From a virus, in IMG/VR virus record IMGVR_UViG_3300021376_000043, positions 1-64,000 of that record: a stretch of DNA of 64,000 nucleotides; one strand, given 5' to 3'. Below, piece by piece: positions 42,034 to 59,248 of the stretch. Numbering within the stretch: the stretch's first letter is position 1; every line of letters starts with the position of its first letter. The notes under the pieces are model-generated. The model was not told the DNA's origin and ran no database searches. It was given only the letters and a program-made list of their open reading frames with translations. Made by a program: the position numbers and the translations under genes.

Positions 42034-43815
42034 ATGTATACACTCTCTACATTAGATAAATCATCAGTATTATATTTCTATGAAACCATAGACACTTCTA
42101 AAGATTTTATAGTCACTTTTGAGTATGCTTTTTTTGGATATGCTCTATCAGGTTATTATGGATTTAGCTTATTTTTTGTTGATGCTAATAAAGAGCTTGC
42201 TGGAGGCGGCCCGGGGCCTGCTCTAGGTGTAGCAGGGTTAAGAGCATTAACAGGAGCTTCTACAGTAGATTTTCAAGGATCGCAAAATTGTCAGCTTGCT
42301 ATAGGTTTCGATTCTACCGGTGAGTTTGGTTCAACCAACCTTACACCTACTATAAGTGGATTTGCATCGCCCTTACCTAACACTATTACTTTAAGAGGCG
42401 GTACATCACAAGATTTCTACCCCCTATATAGAACAGAATCATTATCTAGTTCTGCTTTTTCAGAACCCTTTCAGCTTTACAGGCAAATACCAAAAACAAT
42501 CACTCCTAATGTAGACCCATCTAAAGAACCATTACCGTCATTTAGAACTTTTAGAGTCAGAATTACCGATTTAGGTACTAGAGTTGTAATAGATCATAAG
42601 ATAAAAGATAGGTTCATTAATATAGTAGACCATAAATTAAACTATTCTATATCACCAACAGTATTTCCTGCTATTGGTTATAGCTTTGGTCCCATGAACT
42701 TTCCAACTGATATTAATGCAGCTGTATTAGCTATAAAGAGTATTAACGCTAATGCATTTTTCCTGACACCCACACCAACACCTTCTATTACACCCACAAA
42801 TACTTCTACACCATCTAATACACCTACTATTTCTGTTTCACCGTCTCTTACACCTACACTTTCATTAACACCCTCAGAAACACCCACAAACACACCAACA
42901 ATTTCATTAACCCCTACAATTTCTATAACCCCAACAAACACTAGTACACCTACTGAGACACCTACAAACACACCAACACCAACAAATACACCAACATACA
43001 CTAGAACTCCATCCGTTACCCCTACATATACCTTTACCCCTACATACACACCTACTTTTACAAGATCACCTTCACCCACACCTACTACTACAAGAACGCC
43101 CACTAACACTCCTACAGTGACAAGAACAACAACTAACACACCAACAAATACAAGAACGCCCACTAATACTCCTACAGTGACTAGAACACCTGGCCCTACA
43201 CGTACGAGTACACCTACGAACACCTCTACACCAACAGTAACTAGAACCCCTACTATTACACCGACAAATACTAGAACGCCTACCGCAACACCTACTATGA
43301 CGCCGTCACCTAAAGCTGCTCTTTCATTTACATCTACCGGTGGTATTGCAATACCCTCTTTCGGTATAGCAACTCCCTACCCGCTTAATATTAATGTCTC
43401 TGGTGTACCTAGCAATGCATATAATATTACTGTTACACTTAATAATTTAACTCATAGCTATAATGAAGACTTAGGAATACTTTTAGTTTCACCTGCAGGT
43501 GTTGCTACTTTGCTTTCTTATAATACAGGAGAAGGAATAGGAGATACGCCAATAACAGTTACCTTCGATCAATTAGCTTCTCAAGTATGGGATGGTACTT
43601 CAGCAGGTACATTTAAACCATTTACCGCATCTAGTGAGGTAGACTTTGATCTGATAAATGGATGCCCTGCAGGGCCGTATGTTGCTAATTTAGGCGTATA
43701 TAATAATGCTACACCAGCAAATATTAACGGTACTTGGAAATTATATATAGAAGACTTTACTCCTAGAGATTCAGGTACTATAGTCAGTGTTACTATAACG
43801 ATTTACTACTATTGA
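42034..43815 (+). CDS. adhesin/fibre: lectin-like domain, Thr/Pro tract, P-domain
   Basis: The 593-residue protein has three parts. Residues 1-240 resemble an L-type (legume-like) lectin fold: [63 protein letters not shown]. Residues 245-427 are a Thr/Pro tract (units such as NTPTxTRTPT). Residues 430-593 look like a proprotein-convertase P-domain: [31 protein letters not shown] and [18 protein letters not shown]. The shape suits a stalked surface adhesin. The stop codon lies in the -35 box of the glycosyltransferase gene that follows. No enzyme residues are visible. Confidence 0.7.
42766..43311 (+). repeat. Thr/Pro (mucin-like) repeat tract 1
   Basis: Degenerate hexamer and nonamer repeats around ACACCTACN encode about 180 residues of Thr-Pro with Asn, Ser, Arg interspersed. 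Sub-blocks repeat, for example CCCACTAACACTCCTACAGT near 43100 and again with few changes near 43160. Confidence 0.9.
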
Positions 43816-43845: not shown

Positions 43846-45180
43846 GTGAAAAGAAAAATTACTAAATCTAAAGCTGTATCTAAATCTTTAACTAAATCAA
43901 AATCGACAACTAAAAAGTCTTCAGGAAGTGATAAAATATTTATATCTATTGCTTCATACCGCGATCCTCAGTTACTACCTACAATAAGAGATTGTATCGC
44001 TAATGCTAAAAATCCTGACAATCTAGTTTTCGGTATTTGCTGGCAGCGAGATGATACTGAAACGTTAGCAGAATTTACGGATGATAAAAGATTTAGGGTA
44101 ATACCCATTCCATGTATGGAAAGCAAAGGTACATGCTGGGCCCGTAGTATGATACAGGACAAATATCAAGATGAAGAATATCATTTACAGATTGATAGCC
44201 ATCATAGGTTTGTAAAGGATTGGGATGAAAAGTGCATTAATATGATAAAGCAGCTTCAAGATAAAGGACATAAAAAGCCTTTGCTTACAGGCTATATTTC
44301 TAGCTTCAATCCTGATAATGATCCTGCTGAACGTATTATGATTCCTTGGAAAATGAATTTTGATAGATTTATTCCTGAAGGTGCAGTATTTTTTCTCCCT
44401 GCATCAATAGATGACTATAAGCAGAGATCCGAGCCAATACCTTCTCGCTTTGTTTCAGCCCATTTTATTTTTACTCTAGGTAAGTGGATTAAGGAAGTTC
44501 CTTATGATCCTTATTATTATTTTCACGGAGAAGAGATTAACTTAGCTGTAAGGTCATTCACACACGGCTACGATCTCTTCCATCCACACATTGTTGTTGC
44601 CTGGCATGAGTATACTCGTCGCGGTAGATCAAAGCATTGGGACGACGTTAAGCAGTGGTATGAGTTAAATAAACTTTCACATCAAAGAAATAGAATTCTC
44701 TTTGGAATGGATCCTAATACCAAGAAAATTAAATTCGGTAAGTATGGGTTTGGTACAGAACGTTCAGTTTCTGATTACGAGGCTTACTCTGGTCTTCATT
44801 TTAAAAGAAGGGCAGTGCAGAGATTTACGCTGGATAATAATTTAGCGCCTAATCCTAATAATTTTAAGACTAAGGAAGAATATGAGCAATCTTTCTTAAG
44901 AATCTTTAAACATTGTATTGATATTAGATACGAGCAAGTACCTGAGAAAGACTATGATTTTTGGTGCGTAGCGTTTAAGGATAAAAACGGTAATGATGTT
45001 TACCGTAAAGATGCCGATAGAGGTGAGATTGATAGAATGTTTGCGGATCCTGACAAGTATTGTAAGGTTTGGAGAGAGTTTAATATTGAAGAGCCGCCAC
45101 ATAGCTGGATTGTATGGCCTCATAGTATTAGTAAGGGGTGGGCAGACCCTATTACCGGTATATTAAACCACGACGGGTAA
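43846..45180 (+). CDS. GlcNAc-transferase family protein (GT60/Skp1-GnT-like)
   Basis: This 444-residue protein starts at GTG. After a Lys/Ser-rich leader, KIFISIASYRDPQLLPTIRD and NPDNLVFGICWQRDD match the N-terminal signature of the GlcNAc family (PF11397-type), whose known eukaryotic member adds GlcNAc to hydroxyproline of Skp1, with relatives acting on Thr. EYHLQIDSHHRFVKDWD (residues about 110-126) has the metal-binding Asp, and PYYYFHGEEINLAVRSFTHG the catalytic GEE box. The gene lies between Thr/Pro-rich fibre genes, making those tracts plausible acceptors (inference). It opens the cassette 43846-50047. Confidence 0.75.
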   Translation: MKRKITKSKAVSKSLTKSKSTTKKSSGSDKIFISIASYRDPQLLPTIRDCIANAKNPDNLVFGICWQRDDTETLAEFTDDKRFRVIPIPCMESKGTCWARSMIQDKYQDEEYHLQIDSHHRFVKDWDEKCINMIKQLQDKGHKKPLLTGYISSFNPDNDPAERIMIPWKMNFDRFIPEGAVFFLPASIDDYKQRSEPIPSRFVSAHFIFTLGKWIKEVPYDPYYYFHGEEINLAVRSFTHGYDLFHPHIVVAWHEYTRRGRSKHWDDVKQWYELNKLSHQRNRILFGMDPNTKKIKFGKYGFGTERSVSDYEAYSGLHFKRRAVQRFTLDNNLAPNPNNFKTKEEYEQSFLRIFKHCIDIRYEQVPEKDYDFWCVAFKDKNGNDVYRKDADRGEIDRMFADPDKYCKVWREFNIEEPPHSWIVWPHSISKGWADPITGILNHDG

Positions 45181-45192
45181 ACTCATAATATA

Positions 45193-46068
45193 ATGAGCGT
45201 AACCTTTATCTCATGCGTATATTATGATTTATACGAGACAGAGTTTAACGGACGTACGTCTAGAGAACTACATTACTTATATTCATTGCGTAATATATTG
45301 AATACAGATGTAAATTTATGTCTTTATACGTCAGAAGAACACATACCAAAAGTTACTAGGTTTTTAGAGCCATCTCACAATAAGAATATTAAAATATTAC
45401 CACTGGATCTTAAATCTACCAAACTATATGATAGATTGAAACCAATTAAATCGAGTAATTTACTCGAGCCAATGAGATGCTACGAAATTATGTATTCGAA
45501 GACCGATTGGCTCAATGAAGTGGTCACTAGCAACCCTTTCAATAGTGAATATTTTTATTGGATTGATGCAGGGCTTTCGCATCATGGTTTATTTCCTCAA
45601 AGATTTAGAAGAAATAACACAGGAGATCCACAGTATGACCAGTGGTATAATTATGATTTATTTAATAGCTCGCTTGTTGAGAGAACTTTAAAACCTAATC
45701 TCGAGAAATTATTCGCAATTTGCCTGGAACAGCATACATTAATACAAAATAGGTATATAGCTGAATTATTTGAAGCACCTAGACAGCTACCACTTCATTT
45801 TATTGGTGGATTGTTCGGTGGTTCACCTTCTAATATTAGATGGTTTTATGATGAGTTTAATAAAAGGCTTAATAAAGCATTAGAAATAGGATTACTGCCC
45901 ACAGAAGAACAAATATATACATCTATACTTCATGATAATTTAAATAGGTTTGATTATAGAACGTTTAATACGTGGTATTACCCTGATCCTAAAAATCCTA
46001 TTTTTGATAATTTTATGCCCTACCTTCAAGGCCATACACCTAAACCTTTTTTTGAAATATTTTTATGA
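45193..46068 (+). CDS. HtrL/WlaTC-like glycosyltransferase
   Basis: The 291-residue protein shows the HtrL_YibB/WlaTC pattern: TFISCVYYDLYETEF at the start, YSLRNILNTDVNLCLYTSEE, PMRCYEIMYSKTDWLNEVV, then YFYWIDAGLSHHGLFP (the acidic, sugar-binding region) and LHFIGGLFGGSPSNI. Such proteins are associated with lipopolysaccharide and capsule synthesis. A second copy of the fold lies in the middle of the protein at 47642. The stop overlaps the next ATG by 4 nt. Confidence 0.7.
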   Translation: MSVTFISCVYYDLYETEFNGRTSRELHYLYSLRNILNTDVNLCLYTSEEHIPKVTRFLEPSHNKNIKILPLDLKSTKLYDRLKPIKSSNLLEPMRCYEIMYSKTDWLNEVVTSNPFNSEYFYWIDAGLSHHGLFPQRFRRNNTGDPQYDQWYNYDLFNSSLVERTLKPNLEKLFAICLEQHTLIQNRYIAELFEAPRQLPLHFIGGLFGGSPSNIRWFYDEFNKRLNKALEIGLLPTEEQIYTSILHDNLNRFDYRTFNTWYYPDPKNPIFDNFMPYLQGHTPKPFFEIFL

Positions 46069-47639
46069 ATAATATAGCTTTTTACGGGTCACATAACGGT
46101 GGAATAGCTTTTAAGCATAATAATCGATATAGAGTTATTGAGATTGAGAGATTCGCTAGTAAGAAAAATCTCGGATTGGTTCAATATAGATTATGCCATA
46201 ATTCAAGATTTATTTTAGATGAAATGCTAAAATATCTCAATAAAGAGTTTAATATATATCCTTACTTTGATACTTGTATATATTCTAATACAGATGTAAT
46301 TTATGGTACTGAAAAATATAATTTTGAAAAATTTATTACAGCCAAAGAGCATAAATTCTGTTTGCATCACAGAGCACATGCAGCAGGTACATTCTATCAA
46401 TCACCTTTTCAGAAAGCATTAATTTTTAGCTTTGATGGCGGTGGCAGTGATGGGTTTTTTAATATATATACTGCTACTAGAGCTGAAAGTGTAACAGAAG
46501 TACAGAGGTTTAACTTAGATCTTGGGTTTGCATATATGATTTTTGGTCATTTTCTTAAAGAAATAAGCTTTGAATCAGATCTCAATATAGGCAATCTCGT
46601 TTATTCTGGTAAACTAATGGGTCTCTGCGGATATGGTGAGGTTAGAAACGACTGGGTACCACACTTTAAGGAGTTTTATTTGAAAAAACCTAGCGGATTA
46701 AATTATAACGAGCTTTTAGCAGAACTAGGTATTAAAATAGGAGTTATCTTTGATGTTAATAATAGGATTGGTGATAAAATTGGTTTAGATATAGCCGCTA
46801 CTTCACAACATGTTTTTGAAGAAATATTTTTTGAAACAGTCACTCCTTTTGTTAATCAGTATCTGGATTATCCTTTATGTGTAACTGGCGGGTGTGCGCT
46901 AAATGTTGTTTGTAATACTAAATTAAAAGAAAAATTTAATAGAGATGTATTCGTTGCACCAAATTCTAATGATTGTGGATTAGCGTTAGGTATGCTTTTA
47001 GATCATGAGAGACCCTTTAGTCAAGTAGATGTGACTTATGGAGGATTACCTATTTGTGACCCCAATGCGTTATATGAATTAGTTGAAAATAAATGGACAA
47101 ACGAATATACTCCTCAAGTCGGAGCTCAATTATTACGTAACGGTAGTATAATTGGTGTAATAAGAGGCGATTCAGAACATGGACCTAGGGCTTTGGGTAA
47201 TAGAAGTATTATTTGTAATCCCTCGGTACCAAATATGAAGGATATTCTTAATAGTAAGGTTAAGAAGCGTGAGTGGTTTAGACCATTTGCTCCTGTTGTA
47301 CGCTTAGAGGATGTAGAAAAATATTTTTATTTTAAAGAAGAGAGCCGCTTTATGAGTTTTTATGCCAAAGTCAAAGAAGAATGGAAAGAACAATTAGCGG
47401 CTATTACTCATATTGACGGTACTGCTAGACTTCAAACAGTAACGTATGATCAAAATCCTTATCTCTACGAACTATTAACAGAATTTAATAATCTTACAAA
47501 TTTTGGTGTTTTATTAAATACCTCTTTTAATGTTAATGGTAAACCACTTATCAACTCCTATAAAGACGCGCTTTATATGTTAAACAATTCAGGACTAGAT
47601 TATGTGTTTACTCAGAAATATATAATACATAAACAATAA
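46065..47639 (+). CDS. carbamoyltransferase, NodU/CmcH family
   Basis: The 524-residue protein has the two-domain layout of O-carbamoyltransferases. The Kae1-like half has LHHRAHAAG (His pair near 100-105, carbamoyl-adenylate formation), SFDGGGSDG (near 122-130) and VTGGCALNVVCNTKL. The second half has GDSEHGPRALGNRSI (near 370-382), KKREWFRPFAPVV and LLNTSFNVNGKPL. It moves a carbamoyl group from carbamoyl phosphate via carbamoyl-AMP to a hydroxyl, usually on a sugar. In this cassette it probably decorates the glycan built by its neighbours. Coupled (ATGA-type overlap) to the HtrL-like gene. Confidence 0.88.
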   Translation: MNNIAFYGSHNGGIAFKHNNRYRVIEIERFASKKNLGLVQYRLCHNSRFILDEMLKYLNKEFNIYPYFDTCIYSNTDVIYGTEKYNFEKFITAKEHKFCLHHRAHAAGTFYQSPFQKALIFSFDGGGSDGFFNIYTATRAESVTEVQRFNLDLGFAYMIFGHFLKEISFESDLNIGNLVYSGKLMGLCGYGEVRNDWVPHFKEFYLKKPSGLNYNELLAELGIKIGVIFDVNNRIGDKIGLDIAATSQHVFEEIFFETVTPFVNQYLDYPLCVTGGCALNVVCNTKLKEKFNRDVFVAPNSNDCGLALGMLLDHERPFSQVDVTYGGLPICDPNALYELVENKWTNEYTPQVGAQLLRNGSIIGVIRGDSEHGPRALGNRSIICNPSVPNMKDILNSKVKKREWFRPFAPVVRLEDVEKYFYFKEESRFMSFYAKVKEEWKEQLAAITHIDGTARLQTVTYDQNPYLYELLTEFNNLTNFGVLLNTSFNVNGKPLINSYKDALYMLNNSGLDYVFTQKYIIHKQ

Positions 47640-47641
47640 AA

Positions 47642-50047
47642 ATGAAAGTTAATGATAATATATACGATAAAGCGCTTCATTATATTGGGCGTAACAAAAA
47701 AGATGCTTTTGTTGTCATTATTGGCGCAATGGATGGTATTTCATTTGATGAAACAAGAGGTTATATAGCTGTTTATAATTGGAAAGGGTTATTTGTTGAG
47801 CCCATTAAAGAGCAATTTAATAAATTAGTTAACGTTTATTCTGGTACATCCGGGTGTTTATTTGAAAATAGCGCAGTATCTGATAAGAATGGAACTGTTA
47901 AGATGCTTAGAATTAATAATGAAGCTATTAATAAAGGTCTGGTACACGAATGCTTCGGTGGAATGAGCGCTATTTATCCACCTCGTAATGGGTTGGCATC
48001 TGAAGGAGATAAGCAGACTGTTGAAAAATACGGTGAGTTTGTTGAAGTCGATTCAATAACACTACCTACACTCTTCGAAAAGCATAGCATTAAGCAATTT
48101 GATATTATATCAATAGATACAGAAGGACATGATTATGTTATTCTAAAGCAACTAAACTTTAAAAAACATAGCCCCAAAGTAGTTCGTATTGAATATATTA
48201 ATTTAACTCAAAAAGAGCAAAAAGACGCCGTTAAACTTTTAGAAAAGAATGGATATGTTTATAATATTATAGGTCAAAATTTAGATGCTGTTAAAAAAGA
48301 ATTTTGGGATGAAGTAAATGGAAATGTTGAAGCACCTTTATCCATCGCAGTAAAAGAACCAGAAAAAATGTTTGAAGATATTACACTGGTCACTGGGTTA
48401 TGGAATATTGGCCGCAATAATCTTAAAGAAGGATGGAGCAGAAATTATGATCATTATCTAGAAAAATTTTCTGAACTATTAAAAACACCATATAATTTAG
48501 TTATTTTTGGTGATGAAGAATTAGAGCAATTTGTATTAGAGAGGAGAAGTATCTCTAATACACAATTTATTAAGAGAGATTTAAGCTTCTTTACAAATAC
48601 TGAATTTTTTAATAAAATACAAGAAATTAGAAAAAATGATGAATGGTTAAATCAAGCAGGCTGGCTTAGAGAATCAACTCAAGCTCGATTAGAAATGTAT
48701 AATCCATTAGTCACTAGCAAGATGTTCTTACTTAATGATGCTCGATTACTTAGTAAATTTAAAAATAACTACATGTTTTGGGTTGATGCAGGTCTTACTA
48801 ATACAGTACACTGGGGATATTTTACAGAGATACATACTATTAACAATTTAAAACGTTTTTTTAACAAATTTTCTTTTGTATGTTTTCCTTACGAAGCTGT
48901 AAACGAAATACATGGGTTTAAGTTTGATGATATATGCAAAATAGCTAAGGATAAAGTAAAGTTAGTTGGTAGAGGCGGATTCTTTGGTGGTCCAGTTAGC
49001 ACTATTTCTAATATAAATTCACTTTATTACAACATACTTAAAAGTACTTTAGAACAGGGGTTAATGGGAACTGAAGAGTCTATTTTCTCTATATTAGTTT
49101 ATCTGCATGGCGATTTAGTAAATTATTTTGAAATAGAAGATAATGGATTAATTAATAAGTTTTTTGAAGATCTAAAAAATGATAGAGTTGTAGCTAAAAG
49201 TAAATGCAAAGAGACCAACATTAATGTAACCCTTAACACAGATAATACAGCACTATATGTCCTAACATATAATTCACCTAAGCAGTTTGCAACTCTTATT
49301 AAATCTATGGCTGAATATGATTGCGATTTTCTAGAAAAACCACAAAAGTTTTTGCTTGACAATTCCACTAACAAAGACACCCTTAATGAATATTTAGAGC
49401 TTTGCAAAAAATATAAATTCACACACATTAAAAAGGACAATATTGGAATATGCGGCGGTAGACAATTTATTGCTGAGCATGCTGACTCTAATAATTTCGA
49501 TTTTCATTTATTTTTTGAAGATGATATGTTTTTTTATTGCGGGGTAAAAAGACCTTGCAAGAACGGGTTCAATAGAATAATACCTAATTTGTACATTAAC
49601 GCATTAGAAATTACTAAAAATTACGGATTAGACTTTCTTAAACTAAGCTTTACTGAATTTTTCGGTGATAATACCGTACAATGGACCTGGTATAATGTAC
49701 CTCAAGCTGTTAGAGAGAAAGTCTGGCCGCATAAATCACAACTACCAGTGACAGGAACCGATCCTAATGCGCCTAAAACAAAATTTAATAATATTATATC
49801 TTACAAAGGCATTCCATTTGCAACCGGTGAAATTTACTATTGTAATTGGCCTCAAGTAGTTACAAAAGAAGGCAATAAAAAGATGTTTTTAACCACAAAA
49901 TGGGCTCATCCTTTTGAACAAACTTGGATGTCATATATTTTCCAAGAAAACTTAAAAGGTAATATTAATGGCGGTGTTTTACTTGCTTCTCCTACGGAAC
50001 ACAATCGATTCGAATATTATAAAGCTTCAGAAAGAAGAGAAAATTGA
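47642..50047 (+). CDS. three-domain fusion: FkbM methyltransferase, HtrL-like GT, GT-A glycosyltransferase
   Basis: The 801-residue protein joins three enzymes. Residues 1-215 are an FkbM-type O-methyltransferase (AFVVIIGAMDGISFDETRGY, WKGLFVEPIKEQF, FDIISIDTEGHDYVILKQL). Residues about 243-525 repeat the HtrL/WlaTC fold (TLVTGLWNIGRNNLKEGW, NYMFWVDAGLTNTVHWGYF, GRGGFFGGPVSTISNI). Residues about 527-801 are a GT-A-like unit (ALYVLTYNSPKQFATLIKSM, HLFFEDDMFFYCG with acidic residues near 625). One polypeptide could elongate and methylate a glycan. It starts 2 nt after the carbamoyltransferase stop and closes the cassette. Confidence 0.75.
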   Translation: MKVNDNIYDKALHYIGRNKKDAFVVIIGAMDGISFDETRGYIAVYNWKGLFVEPIKEQFNKLVNVYSGTSGCLFENSAVSDKNGTVKMLRINNEAINKGLVHECFGGMSAIYPPRNGLASEGDKQTVEKYGEFVEVDSITLPTLFEKHSIKQFDIISIDTEGHDYVILKQLNFKKHSPKVVRIEYINLTQKEQKDAVKLLEKNGYVYNIIGQNLDAVKKEFWDEVNGNVEAPLSIAVKEPEKMFEDITLVTGLWNIGRNNLKEGWSRNYDHYLEKFSELLKTPYNLVIFGDEELEQFVLERRSISNTQFIKRDLSFFTNTEFFNKIQEIRKNDEWLNQAGWLRESTQARLEMYNPLVTSKMFLLNDARLLSKFKNNYMFWVDAGLTNTVHWGYFTEIHTINNLKRFFNKFSFVCFPYEAVNEIHGFKFDDICKIAKDKVKLVGRGGFFGGPVSTISNINSLYYNILKSTLEQGLMGTEESIFSILVYLHGDLVNYFEIEDNGLINKFFEDLKNDRVVAKSKCKETNINVTLNTDNTALYVLTYNSPKQFATLIKSMAEYDCDFLEKPQKFLLDNSTNKDTLNEYLELCKKYKFTHIKKDNIGICGGRQFIAEHADSNNFDFHLFFEDDMFFYCGVKRPCKNGFNRIIPNLYINALEITKNYGLDFLKLSFTEFFGDNTVQWTWYNVPQAVREKVWPHKSQLPVTGTDPNAPKTKFNNIISYKGIPFATGEIYYCNWPQVVTKEGNKKMFLTTKWAHPFEQTWMSYIFQENLKGNINGGVLLASPTEHNRFEYYKASERREN

Positions 50048-50080: not shown

Positions 50081-52552
50081 GTGAATTTAGTTAGCTATGT
50101 ACTTTCAAGTACTCAAATAAGCGAAAAACCATCTGTTTTAAATCACTATCTATTTTTAGATCCCGCTTTCGGTACTAATTTTACTTGGCCAAACACAGCG
50201 AATGGCTTGCAGTTTACCACATTAGAACCTGCTTACACAGCACTCACAGATGGCGGAGATTTCTTTCCCTGGGGATACCCCATTTTTAATACCACTCTTA
50301 GTGCTGATCTTGGACTATATAAAGGAGAAACTACATTAGTTATATCACCATCAAGTATTGATGAAACATATTATGCGACGCTAAAGATAATATATGATTT
50401 TAATGATGGTAGTGATATTATAAATGTAGAAAAAAATACTGTTTTAAATTATATCCCTAGCAAACCTGTTTTTGATCCAGGGTCACCGAAAGAAAAAAAT
50501 ATAGAACACGTGTATATTCCTAACTCGCTAAGTGCTATAACATACTATCCAACTATATCTGTCGTAAATGGTAACTTAGCGCTAAACGTCTTTAATTTAC
50601 AACTAACTATACTACCCGATACGGTTTTTCGCTTCGACTCACCTCATCTAGTTAATTCTTCACAAATTTCCTCTAGTATAGATACTATTCAAAAAAGCGT
50701 AGAACTAATAGAACTTAACGATGATAATACAAATTTTGTAAGCAATTTTCTACTACTTAGTACAGCCCCAGATGAAGAATTAAATAGACGCTCTAATAGA
50801 AATTATACACCAACACCTACGCGTACAGCTACTACTACACCGACACCTACAGTTACACGTACGCGTACACCAACACCAACACCTACACGCACACCTACAA
50901 GAACAGTCACACCTACAGTTACACAAGATATTACTAATACTCCTACACCTACTATTACTAGAACACCCACGCGTACACCAGCAGTTACACCCACTATAAC
51001 AGAGACAGCTGCTGTGACACCAACACCCACACCTTCATTTACCTTTACACCTACATATTCTATTACACCAACTAACACACCTTCGCATACACCTACAAGA
51101 ACAAATCAACCTACATCTACACCTACGCGCTCAGTAACACCTACGTTTACACCTACAAAAACACCATCAAATACACCTTCCTATACATTACCGGTTACAC
51201 CAGCAATTTCAAACACACCAACAGTAACATACACCCCGACTCGCACAGAAACACCAACATATACACCTACACCTACAGTAACACCTACAGAATCTGGATT
51301 ACCAGATCCTACACCCACACCTGAAGTAACACCAACTAACACACGCACACCTACTAGTACTCCTACAAATACACCTACTAACACACCAACTAATACCTCT
51401 ACACCCACACCCACAAGGACAATTACACCTACACCAACACTATCGCGTCCTTCACCCGTTGGTCCTGGTACAGCATTAGTAGCAGGAGATAATACATACG
51501 GTCAATTAGGCCTTAATACAATAAATGATTTCTATACAACTATAAATAGTAACATAGGTACATTTACAAACGCATCTTTAGGATTGAGACATTCGCTTAC
51601 ATTAAGCGCAACTAGTGACGGAACAGCTTTATTTGGTGCAGGATATAATGAAAATGGGCAGCTTGGATTATCACAGCTCATATATTACCCTACTTGGACA
51701 AGAATATCCGGATTCTGGACTAAGGTAGCCGCTGGTTTTTATAGCTCACTTGCACTATCAGGTACAGATTTATATGCTACAGGAGATAATTCTACCGGAC
51801 AAATTGGATTAGGCACTTCATTATCTGCTTCTACCTGGACTCAAATACCTGGTAGCTGGTCTGATATATCTATTGGCTATGAATTTGCTGCAGCACTTGC
51901 TTCCGACGGCTCATTATATACTACAGGAGATAATACCTACGGTCAATTATCCTACGGAAATAATACAGCTACCAATACATTTACACTTGTAACTAATTAC
52001 ATAGCAGATGATGGTATAACTATTTTGAATAATCCGAGATTTAATAGTATATATTGTAGCAAATATAGTGGATTATATGCGCTTTCAGGATCAAGCGCAC
52101 CTTATAAGCTTTATGTAGCTGGCTATAATCAACAAGGTCAGTTAGGTCTAAATAATAATATTAATAGATCTTACTTAACACCAGTAAACTCTATACTACT
52201 AATTAATAATCCAAGATTTGATAAGATAGCACCAGGTACAGACCACGCGTTAGCATTATCCGGTACAGATGTTTATGTCACAGGTAGAAATAATGTATAT
52301 CAATTAGGATTAAATGATACAACAACAAGAAGTGTTTGGACAGCTATTACCGGGAGTTATATAGATATTGCCGCGGGTGCTCAATTTTCTGTAGCTCTTA
52401 ATACTTCATTAAGATTTAGTAGAACAGGTATAAATGATAGAGGTCAATTGTTTAATGGGACTACGAGTACTATTACATTATGGACAGTAGATCCTGTTGT
52501 AAGAACGGTATCAAGAGTACACGCCGGATATAGACACACTATTGCTACATAG
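50081..52552 (+). CDS. fibre/adhesin: PKD-like domain, Thr/Pro tract, RCC1 propeller
   Basis: This 823-residue protein starts at GTG. Residues 1-240 contain a PKD/Ig-like unit ([22 protein letters not shown]). Residues 242-455 are Thr/Pro repeats. Residues about 465-823 form an RCC1-type propeller of roughly seven blades with the hallmark 'G-D-N-x-x-G-Q-L-G' turns: [93 protein letters not shown]1 propellers bind proteins. A stalked head domain for receptor binding fits best. It sits directly after the glycan cassette. Confidence 0.75.
50806..51445 (+). repeat. Thr/Pro (mucin-like) repeat tract 2
   Basis: About 213 residues of Thr-Pro repeats with Arg, Asn, Ser and occasional Ile/Val, encoded by ACACCTACN-like units. 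Confidence 0.9.
51377..51421 (+). repeat. 45-nt segment identical to 58454-58498
   Basis: Exact DNA identity over 45 nt with the Thr/Pro tract of the gene at 57563, in the same codon frame. Flanks differ immediately on both sides. Confidence 0.85.
51473..52540 (+). repeat. RCC1-like blades, about seven
   Basis: Tandem units of about 50 residues each carry a GDN/GYN-x-x-GQL/GQI-G turn followed by W-T and a beta strand with 'ALSGT' or 'ALA'. DNA is not repeated exactly, so these are old duplications. Confidence 0.8.
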
Positions 52553-57562: not shown

Positions 57563-59248
57563 ATGCCACAGAAATACGTATTCAGAGTAAATAAGATAAA
57601 AGCAGTAATACCTGTTACGCCTGTACTACCTACTGAAACCCCAGGACCGTCTCCTACACCTTCTGTTACTCAAACAGCCCCTCCTTCCCCTACACCTACA
57701 AGAACACCCGATGTAACTCCTACTAATACCCGCACACCTACCTTTACACCTACCAACACCCGTACACCTACTAACACACCTACCAACACCCGTACACCTA
57801 CTAACACACCTACTAACACCCGTACACCTACTAATTCAGTTACTATATCTAACACACCTACAAATACGCCTACAGAAACACCTGTTGGTACATTAACGCC
57901 AACACCTTCAAACACACCTACTATTTCTCTAACACCGACAAACACACCTACTATTTCTCTAACACCGACAAACTCTGTAACACCTACAAGTACACCAGAA
58001 ATTACTCCTACAGGCTCTAATACACCTACCTTTACACCCACTAATACTCGTACAAATACCGTAACACCCTCTAATACACCTACTAATACAGTAACCCAGA
58101 CACCAACTTGTACTGAAGGTATAACTAACACACCAACACCTACATTTACTACTACACCTTCCGAAACACCAGCTAATACACCAGAACCTACTCAGACTGT
58201 TTCACCTACAAGAACACCTTCAAATACACCTACAATTACACCTACTAGAACAGCCACTAGCACACCTGCACCGACACCAACACCAACAACAACATTTACA
58301 CCTACACCTACACCAACATCGACGCAAACTCCTACTGCAACACCTACTAAGACAAATACACCTACACCAACTTCTACTGCAACACCTACAGCAACTCAAA
58401 CACCTACGCAAACATCAACACCTACAAGGACGGCTACACCTACTAATACACCAACTAACACACCAACTAATACCTCTACACCCACACCCACAAGGACACC
58501 GCCACCCACTCCTACAAGAACACCTACTAGTACGGTAACAAGAACACCTACAACTACTCCTACACCTACCTTTACACCTACAGAAACAGCTACCGTTACA
58601 CCTACTAATACACCTACTAACACTGCAACAGCTACAGTTACACCTACAGTTACCGTTACACCTACTAATACACCTACTAGCACTGCAACAGTTACCGTTA
58701 CACCTACTAATACACCTACTAGCACTGCAACAGCTACAGTTACACCTACAGTTACCAGGACAACCACTAGTACACCTACATCTACTGTGACCCAAACAAG
58801 GACATCCACCAGTACGCCTACAAGAACAGTCACACCTACAACAACATCGACAAATACACCTACAGCAACCGTAACACCCACAAGACAGCCAGTACTCACG
58901 GCAACTGTATTTGTACCGCCGAATTCCGGATCTATAAACCCTACAATAACTGTAGGCACAGGAGTAAACGCAATTACAATTTCATCTACTGGAAACAGTA
59001 CAGGATTTACACTTTATTATAATAGTATAGGTAGTGGCGAGGGCGGCGGCGCAGCTGCTGTAGGAATATACATTCCTAGCTTAGGTGTTGAAATTGGTAG
59101 GTTAGATTACTTTACCGCTCGCAATGGAAATTATTTTGGCATCCTATTACAAGGGTCTTCTACGATTTATTATGGTAAATTTGAGCTTAGCCCTGATGGC
59201 GACTTAAATTGGGTATTCCCTGCAGATGATGCATGGCCAGGGGGATAA
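57563..59248 (+). CDS. mucin-like Thr/Pro fibre protein with small C-terminal domain
   Basis: This 561-residue protein has a short basic N-terminus ([15 protein letters not shown]), then Thr/Pro repeats over about 19-443, the longest such tract in the window. The C-terminal domain of about 115 residues is beta-rich ([60 protein letters not shown]). Such a composition suggests an extended rod with a terminal knob, or a flexible stalk. No host family is recognised for the knob. The many Thr residues are potential O-glycosylation acceptors for the GT60-like enzyme at 43846 (inference). Confidence 0.75.
57617..58890 (+). repeat. Thr/Pro (mucin-like) repeat tract 3
   Basis: About 425 residues of Thr-Pro repeats, encoded by units such as ACACCTACTAAC. 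Longer exact sub-repeats occur, for example near 57763-57830 and 58600-58740, pointing to recent tandem duplication. Confidence 0.9.
58454..58498 (+). repeat. 45-nt segment identical to 51377-51421
   Basis: Exact copy of a segment in the gene at 50081, same frame, encoding Thr-Asn-Thr-Pro-type units ending in Thr-Arg-Thr. Confidence 0.85.

Follow-up and report, generated by a model that had tools for sequence, protein, structure and literature searches.

A phage methyltransferase–glycosyltransferase fusion in a gene cassette tied to mucin-like stalk proteins

Why would a phage encode a single protein that joins a methyltransferase to further sugar-handling domains, and on what would such a protein act? 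The question is raised by an 801-residue ORF in the window analysed here, a 64,000-nucleotide stretch of viral DNA that is part of a 70 kb record from a T4-like contractile-tailed phage (phage genes in the record encode terminase, sheath, tube, a gp6-like baseplate protein, gp32 and clamp loader). A preliminary description had read the ORF as a fusion of FkbM methyltransferase, HtrL-like and GT-A units in an architecture not known to it from earlier descriptions, and had suggested that the protein builds, branches and caps a glycan. To our knowledge, there are few accounts of glycosylated virion proteins in phages, and few of the enzymes that make them have been identified. In the present case a single genome reveals a complete set of enzymes along with the probable acceptor, a mucin-like stalk (Table 1).

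Table 1. Coordinates of the cassette, the domains of the fused protein and the neighbouring stalk genes in the window.
Feature	Position	Strand	Basis
Putative acceptor, Thr/Pro-rich stalk (nt 42745-43338), C-terminal P-domain (PF01483)	42034..43815	+	
GT60 family transferase, probable initiating polypeptide GlcNAc-transferase (predicted)	43846..45180	+	PF11397, phrog_24687
Stand-alone HtrL-type glycosyltransferase	45193..46068	+	PF09612, 28.8 bits
NodU/TobZ-type O-carbamoyltransferase (predicted)	46065..47639	+	PF02543 + PF16861, phrog_1601
FkbM methyltransferase - HtrL (GT6-like GT-A) - GT-A fusion, 801 aa	47642..50047	+	Pfam + AlphaFold2
FkbM-type SAM methyltransferase domain, aa 1-228	47642..48325	+	PF05050, motifs, fold 2py6
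HtrL_YibB domain, aa 245-511, GT6-like GT-A fold (predicted)	48374..49174	+	PF09612 + model
C-terminal GT-A glycosyltransferase domain, aa 532-801	49235..50044	+	Fold + E626-D627-D628 motif
Putative acceptor, Thr/Pro-rich stalk (nt 50783-51478), then RCC1 beta-propeller	50081..52552	+	
Putative acceptor, long Thr/Pro-rich stalk (nt 57599-58762, 58802-58921), C-terminal domain without known family	57563..59248	+	

Domains and predicted folds of the fused protein

The reading frame runs through 801 codons without interruption, and the opposite strand is riddled with stops. Relatives align with the protein over its full length at 51–60% identity, which makes a chance ORF or a frameshift artefact untenable. 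Pfam searches placed an FkbM domain (PF05050) at residues 27–207 (E = 6.8e-15, 56 bits against a cut-off of 22.7) and an HtrL_YibB domain (PF09612) at residues 246–495 (E = 2.5e-11, 44.1 bits against 24.1), bearing out both assignments of the preliminary description, and the NCBIfam FkbM subfamily model TIGR01444 scored 37.1 bits against a cut-off of 37.7 (E = 3.8e-9). With the YibB equivalog TIGR02192, the fused protein reached 56 bits and missed the cut-off of 264.9; as judged by these scores, its HtrL domain is a member of the YibB superfamily, and YibB orthology is excluded. Within the C-terminal ~270 residues, all matches to GT-A-type families in Pfam and PHROG were sub-threshold, including those to the TET-associated glycosyltransferase family TAGT (PF20691, 15.1 bits, below the cut-off of 27.5) and to phrog_842 (E = 8e-5). 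A sequence search of the PDB with the full-length protein returned zero matches.

An AlphaFold2 model built from 29 sequences (mean pLDDT 85.6) resolves three domains joined by linkers near residues 229–243 and 515–535, with a placement of the domains relative to one another that is unreliable (pTM 0.45). In the predicted structure, residues 241–511, the HtrL domain, align to GT6 enzymes including the blood-group A/B transferases, alpha-1,3-GalT and BoGT6a (Z about 13, rmsd 3.4–4.0), and residues 530–801 align to B4GALNT1, GnT-I, POMGNT1 and GalNAc-T2 (Z 13–15, rmsd about 3.5). Because the glycosyltransferase domains dominated the full-length structural search, we folded the methyltransferase domain and searched with it separately. 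This model (pLDDT 92.8) found its best PDB match in the solved FkbM protein 2py6 (Z 12.4, rmsd 2.5 over 158 residues). Structure prediction thus sustains the three domains that had been described, but revises the nature of the second: HtrL is predicted to fold as a GT6-like GT-A domain and is no third kind of unit beside GT-A, so that the fused protein would comprise one methyltransferase and two glycosyltransferases. In these models the GT-A fold is shared with known enzymes, and the fold by itself gives no reaction.

Conserved positions of the methyltransferase domain are G28, G32, E53-P54, D159, E161 and E184; all but E184 are invariant across the 20 aligned sequences. Invariant residues are likewise present in the HtrL domain (D382, R444-G446 and T477-E479) and in the C-terminal GT-A domain, where they form an acidic metal motif, E626-D627-D628. 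GT6 enzymes usually have a DXD motif; the HtrL domain carries DAG at this position. No transmembrane-like segment was found in the fused protein. A multi-step glycan enzyme is still the likely role of the protein, and the 'builds, branches and caps' wording is plausible, with branching conjectural.

A cassette with an interchangeable methyltransferase

The fusion is the last gene in an operon ordered GT60, HtrL, carbamoyltransferase, fusion. Two of these neighbours, the stand-alone HtrL gene and the carbamoyltransferase, had been correctly recognized in the preliminary description; overlooked had been GT60 and the proteins with Thr/Pro-rich stalks, two features that point to the probable acceptor. 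The GT60 assignment scores 250 bits with PF11397 against a Pfam cut-off of 21. Between the stand-alone HtrL protein and the fusion's own HtrL domain, identity is 26%. Both halves of the carbamoyltransferase were found (PF02543, 86.9 bits; PF16861, 211 bits), and the enzyme did not reach the NodU equivalog cut-off (154.7 against 1000 bits).

Relatives of the fused protein are encoded on 518 viral stretches. We classified 101 distinct viral cores composed of an HtrL domain and a GT-A domain (HtrL2+GT-A) by their methyltransferases: in 16, a fused FkbM domain precedes the core, four carry a fused TylF and one a fused CmcI-like domain, and the remaining 80 are unfused in the sense that they are without any of these three modelled families. 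In about 16 of the unfused loci, a CmcI-like methyltransferase is encoded as a separate gene directly upstream. The fused architecture is therefore recurrent and modular, and we rejected the reading of the window's protein as a unique fusion. The architecture exists in at least 16 distinct viral versions, in versions with other methyltransferases and in a chromosomal copy in Jiulongibacter. That one pair of transferases has been joined time and again to methyltransferases of different families suggests that these enzymes act on the same glycan.

Two variants among the unfused loci deserve mention. At least one core counted among the 80 (L336:4308-6665) has an N-terminal domain of about 225 residues that gives zero Pfam matches and resembles a class I methyltransferase, with a CmcI-like gene directly upstream; from its sequence, this domain reads like a fourth occupant of the methyltransferase slot. 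A GT25-family gene (PF01755) separates GT60 from HtrL in one frequent form of the unfused cassette (for example, L049:8391-9125).

Thr/Pro-rich stalks in phages and bacteria

Three Thr/Pro-rich stalks, each about 200–390 residues long, are encoded in the window. The first gene immediately precedes GT60, the second immediately follows the fusion and the third lies further on. The Thr and Pro codons of the repeats vary, indicating that the repeat is a feature of the protein. Minus-strand ORFs with VGV repeats (42678-43223, 57670-58131 and others like them) are read-through of the Thr/Pro repeats and no genes.

A same-strand Thr/Pro-rich ORF is present in 38 of the 41 distinct GT60 loci that have at least 3 kb of upstream sequence, separated from GT60 by a median gap of 96 bp and by no more than 200 bp in 21 loci. 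The count rises to 39 of 41 if locus L054, just below the Thr/Pro threshold, is included. A viral ORF near the cassette in that locus (L054:1-1386) carries long SSG/TSG repeats, which could also bear O-glycans.

Since these 41 loci had been found through the cassette, we made an independent test with 31 records anchored on the terminase, scoring repeats by the pattern TPTxTPTxT. GT60 and repeats occurred together in 11 records, repeats only in three, GT60 only in none and neither in 17 (Fisher P = 4.3e-6); among records of 40 kb or more, the same classes held 11, 1, 0 and 7 (P = 1.6e-4). Both P values ignore the kinship of the records, most of which are fragments. GT60 was not detected in 3 of the 14 repeat-bearing records, and in a reverse check of 36 viral contigs of at least 40 kb picked by the TPT pattern alone it was present in 13 and absent in 23. 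Thr/Pro repeats must therefore also arise for other reasons. From the sequence evidence as a whole, we consider a mucin-like Thr/Pro-rich stalk the likely acceptor of the cassette.

The fusion proved infrequent in cells: a scan of GTDB contigs yielded 12 relatives of the fused protein, only three of them with the FkbM-HtrL-GTA architecture, and GT60 was rare in the sampled bacteria. On a 1.3 Mb Jiulongibacter contig (L086), an FkbM-type fusion lies amid chromosomal-type genes. Elsewhere the order of parts changes, with the methyltransferase placed between HtrL and GT-A (HtrL-FkbM-GTA, L092), or, on an Acidobacteria contig, with GT60, HtrL, Methyltransf_24 and GT-A joined in one ORF of 1196 residues (L095:6551-10141). 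Immediately upstream of the latter ORF is the gene for a Thr/Pro-rich, Tat-type protein with an fn3 domain.

Bacterial loci that combine GT60 with the HtrL core also have stalks. A Ser/Thr/Pro-rich neighbour was found in all six such loci with enough flanking sequence (L086, L087, L088, L089, L094/L431 and L095), L089 being a weaker case whose stalk ORF falls below the automatic threshold and is without a signal, compared with 1 of 17 GT60 loci without the whole core (P = 7e-5). By a simple rule rather than a trained predictor, a Tat-like N-terminal signal was scored in 6/6 bacterial ORFs over the Thr/Pro criterion (L086, L087, L088, L392, L431 and L095, those of L086 and L392 being related to each other), in 5/273 other ORFs in these loci and in 0/119 viral ones. 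Examples of the twin-arginine motif are SRRTFV and NRRLAL, each followed by a hydrophobic stretch. The twin-arginine pathway exports finished proteins from the cytoplasm, so these signals fit a soluble, cytoplasmic glycosylation that precedes export. Phage stalk proteins need no export, which fits the lack of viral Tat signals. One Tat-type Thr/Pro protein (L087:7134-8279) unusually pairs its signal with a C-terminal sorting domain for type IX secretion (PF18962), and small frames that look PqqD-like by eye lie beside GT60 in Acidobacteria (L432:2477-2761) and Gemmatimonas (L089:7887-8606).

A stalk protein was absent from all 13 Acidobacteriota GT60 loci fetched without an HtrL core, which led us to reject the idea that GT60 always signals stalk glycosylation. 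Two Acidobacteriota loci (L419 and L421), with neither stalk nor HtrL core, have GT60 beside N termini resembling ADP-heptose epimerase, HldE and heptosyltransferase; judging by these neighbours, GT60 may have a role in the LPS core there. As at least two Acidobacteriota GT60 genes thus sit amid LPS-core-like genes, GT60 alone is no proof of protein glycosylation.

A candidate pathway, its alternatives and known systems

We think it likely that the fused protein is a soluble cytoplasmic enzyme with three active sites that extends and O-methylates a glycan on the phage's own mucin-like Thr/Pro-rich stalks at the virion surface. By analogy with the chlorovirus enzyme A064R, stepwise cytoplasmic O-glycosylation, O-methylation and carbamoylation of virion stalks is the best reading of the locus. 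We infer the acceptor, the identities of the sugars and the order of the steps as follows, and likewise that the stalk proteins belong to the virion. The GT60 enzyme would place GlcNAc on Thr of the TPT repeats, a transfer to Thr/Hyp for which GT60 has its precedent in Trypanosoma cruzi only. Further sugars would be added by three transferases, namely the separate HtrL enzyme and the fusion's HtrL and GT-A domains; of these sugars, one would be methylated on a hydroxyl by the FkbM domain and another capped by the carbamoyltransferase. Fusion of the methyltransferase to two transferases would couple extension with methylation on one chain, as in PBCV-1 A064R.

Could the target during infection instead be a polysaccharide of the host surface, such as O-antigen or capsule, altered perhaps to keep out competing phages, with the stalks as unrelated neighbours? 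HtrL_YibB and GT25 domains are generally known from bacterial LPS loci, a GT25 gene is present in related loci, and some GT60 genes of Acidobacteriota sit amid LPS-core-like genes. Clusters of cyanophage glycosyltransferases have, moreover, been taken in a review as makers of diversified outer polysaccharides (PMC7824862). We nevertheless judge this unlikely, given the close same-strand linkage of GT60 to stalk ORFs, their co-occurrence in the terminase-anchored records and the presence of Tat-type stalk proteins next to the cassette in bacteria; the cassette genes examined included no flippase and no membrane or lipid-carrier enzyme.

It appears more doubtful still that the transferases and the carbamoyltransferase serve DNA hypermodification, adding groups to modified bases in the phage's DNA. 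The C-terminal domain does match TAGT and phrog_842 weakly, and a phage carbamoyltransferase acting on 5hmC is known (PMC8670742), but the TAGT score is below its cut-off and the neighbours of the cassette are glycosyltransferases and virion-type proteins, on which grounds we set the DNA reading aside. The methyltransferase partners also belong to O-methyltransferase families of sugars and natural products, with no DNA methylases among them. DNA-modifying carbamoyltransferases accompany thymidylate synthase, and those beside glycosyltransferases sat in unmodified contigs (PMC8670742); a scan of genes from 42034 to 63525 turned up no thymidylate synthase/hydroxymethylase domain. That the product is a small oligosaccharide or a secondary metabolite, methylated and carbamoylated, rather than a protein-bound glycan seems very improbable: FkbM, TylF, CmcI and NodU/TobZ families are generally known to serve antibiotic or Nod-factor pathways, but no assembly-line, scaffold or transporter genes were seen near the cassette, and the precedent for GT60 is protein O-glycosylation. 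None of the three alternatives explains the stalk linkage or the Tat-type signals.

Glycosylation of the phage's own stalks, if true, would explain why Thr/Pro repeats accompany the cassette across a large group of phages from the environment, and would define a cytoplasmic O-glycosylation route free of lipid carriers, with a Tat-exported bacterial counterpart. It would also offer compact, modular glycosyltransferase-methyltransferase fusions for glycan synthesis. Glycosylated stalks would bear on the binding of virions to mucus, hosts and surfaces, which is testable in cultured phages such as XacN1. Our findings suggest that surface proteins of phages, and of a few bacteria, receive from their own makers a mucin-like coat of methylated sugars. 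We regard it as an even call whether a dedicated system of mucin-type O-glycosylation is common to tailed phages and to a small number of bacteria from several phyla. In such a system a GT60 initiator, HtrL/GT-A extenders and swappable sugar methyltransferases and carbamoyltransferases would glycosylate Thr/Pro-rich stalks in the cytoplasm; phages would use it on virion adhesins, and bacteria would export the finished glycoprotein through Tat.

A literature search that left most subscription papers and preprints outside returned nothing directly relevant on GT60/mucin-like glycosylation in phages or on HtrL/FkbM in phages. Among cultured phages, Xanthomonas phage XacN1 has a similar cassette near its baseplate genes, composed of GT60 (ORF334), a carbamoyltransferase (ORF333), an HtrL-like protein (ORF332), ORF331 (246 residues, no significant Pfam match) and an HtrL-GTA core (ORF330); in contrast to the window, this core is without a fused methyltransferase and only short TPT stretches occur, as in ORF325 beside the baseplate genes. 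The available portion of the XacN1 report describes at least two glycoproteins detected by proteomics, tied there to no named gene, and its authors suggest phage-encoded glycosyltransferases as the makers, listing ORF328 and ORF334 (PMC5852040), which gives a hint from experiment, independent of the sequence analysis. In mycobacteriophages, subunits of the capsid and the tail tube likewise carry glycans (Freeman et al. 2023, cited in PMC12619734), although the citing text describes neither a GT60/HtrL/FkbM cassette nor a Thr/Pro stalk. The 5hmC carbamoyltransferase shares its Pfam families with the window's enzyme, but has 5hmC as its substrate and thymidylate synthase as its genomic partner, whereas the enzyme of the window is linked to glycosyltransferases (PMC8670742).

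For the initiating step, the closest counterparts are the T. cruzi enzymes TcOGNT1/2 (CAZy GT60), which make GlcNAc-alpha-Thr on mucins, initiating glycosylation at Thr residues of these mucin-like molecules of the cell surface (PMC9472816); they differ in being eukaryotic Golgi enzymes whose product is extended with Gal/Galf, with no fused methyltransferase-GT-GT enzyme. For the fusion, it is PBCV-1 A064R, in which two glycosyltransferase domains and a SAM methyltransferase have been shown biochemically to make and O-methylate the terminal part of a virion glycan (PMC9614988). The plan of the fused protein is thus less unfamiliar than it had first seemed, since two glycosyltransferases and one methyltransferase in one polypeptide have a characterized viral analogue. 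The likeness is one of plan, homology aside: A064R (638 residues) has its methyltransferase last and acts on an N-glycan of an algal-virus capsid protein, and no GT60, HtrL or carbamoyltransferase partner is described for it. The cassette reported here, whose association with mucin-like stalks extends from phages to some bacteria, is a variant of virus-encoded glycan synthesis.
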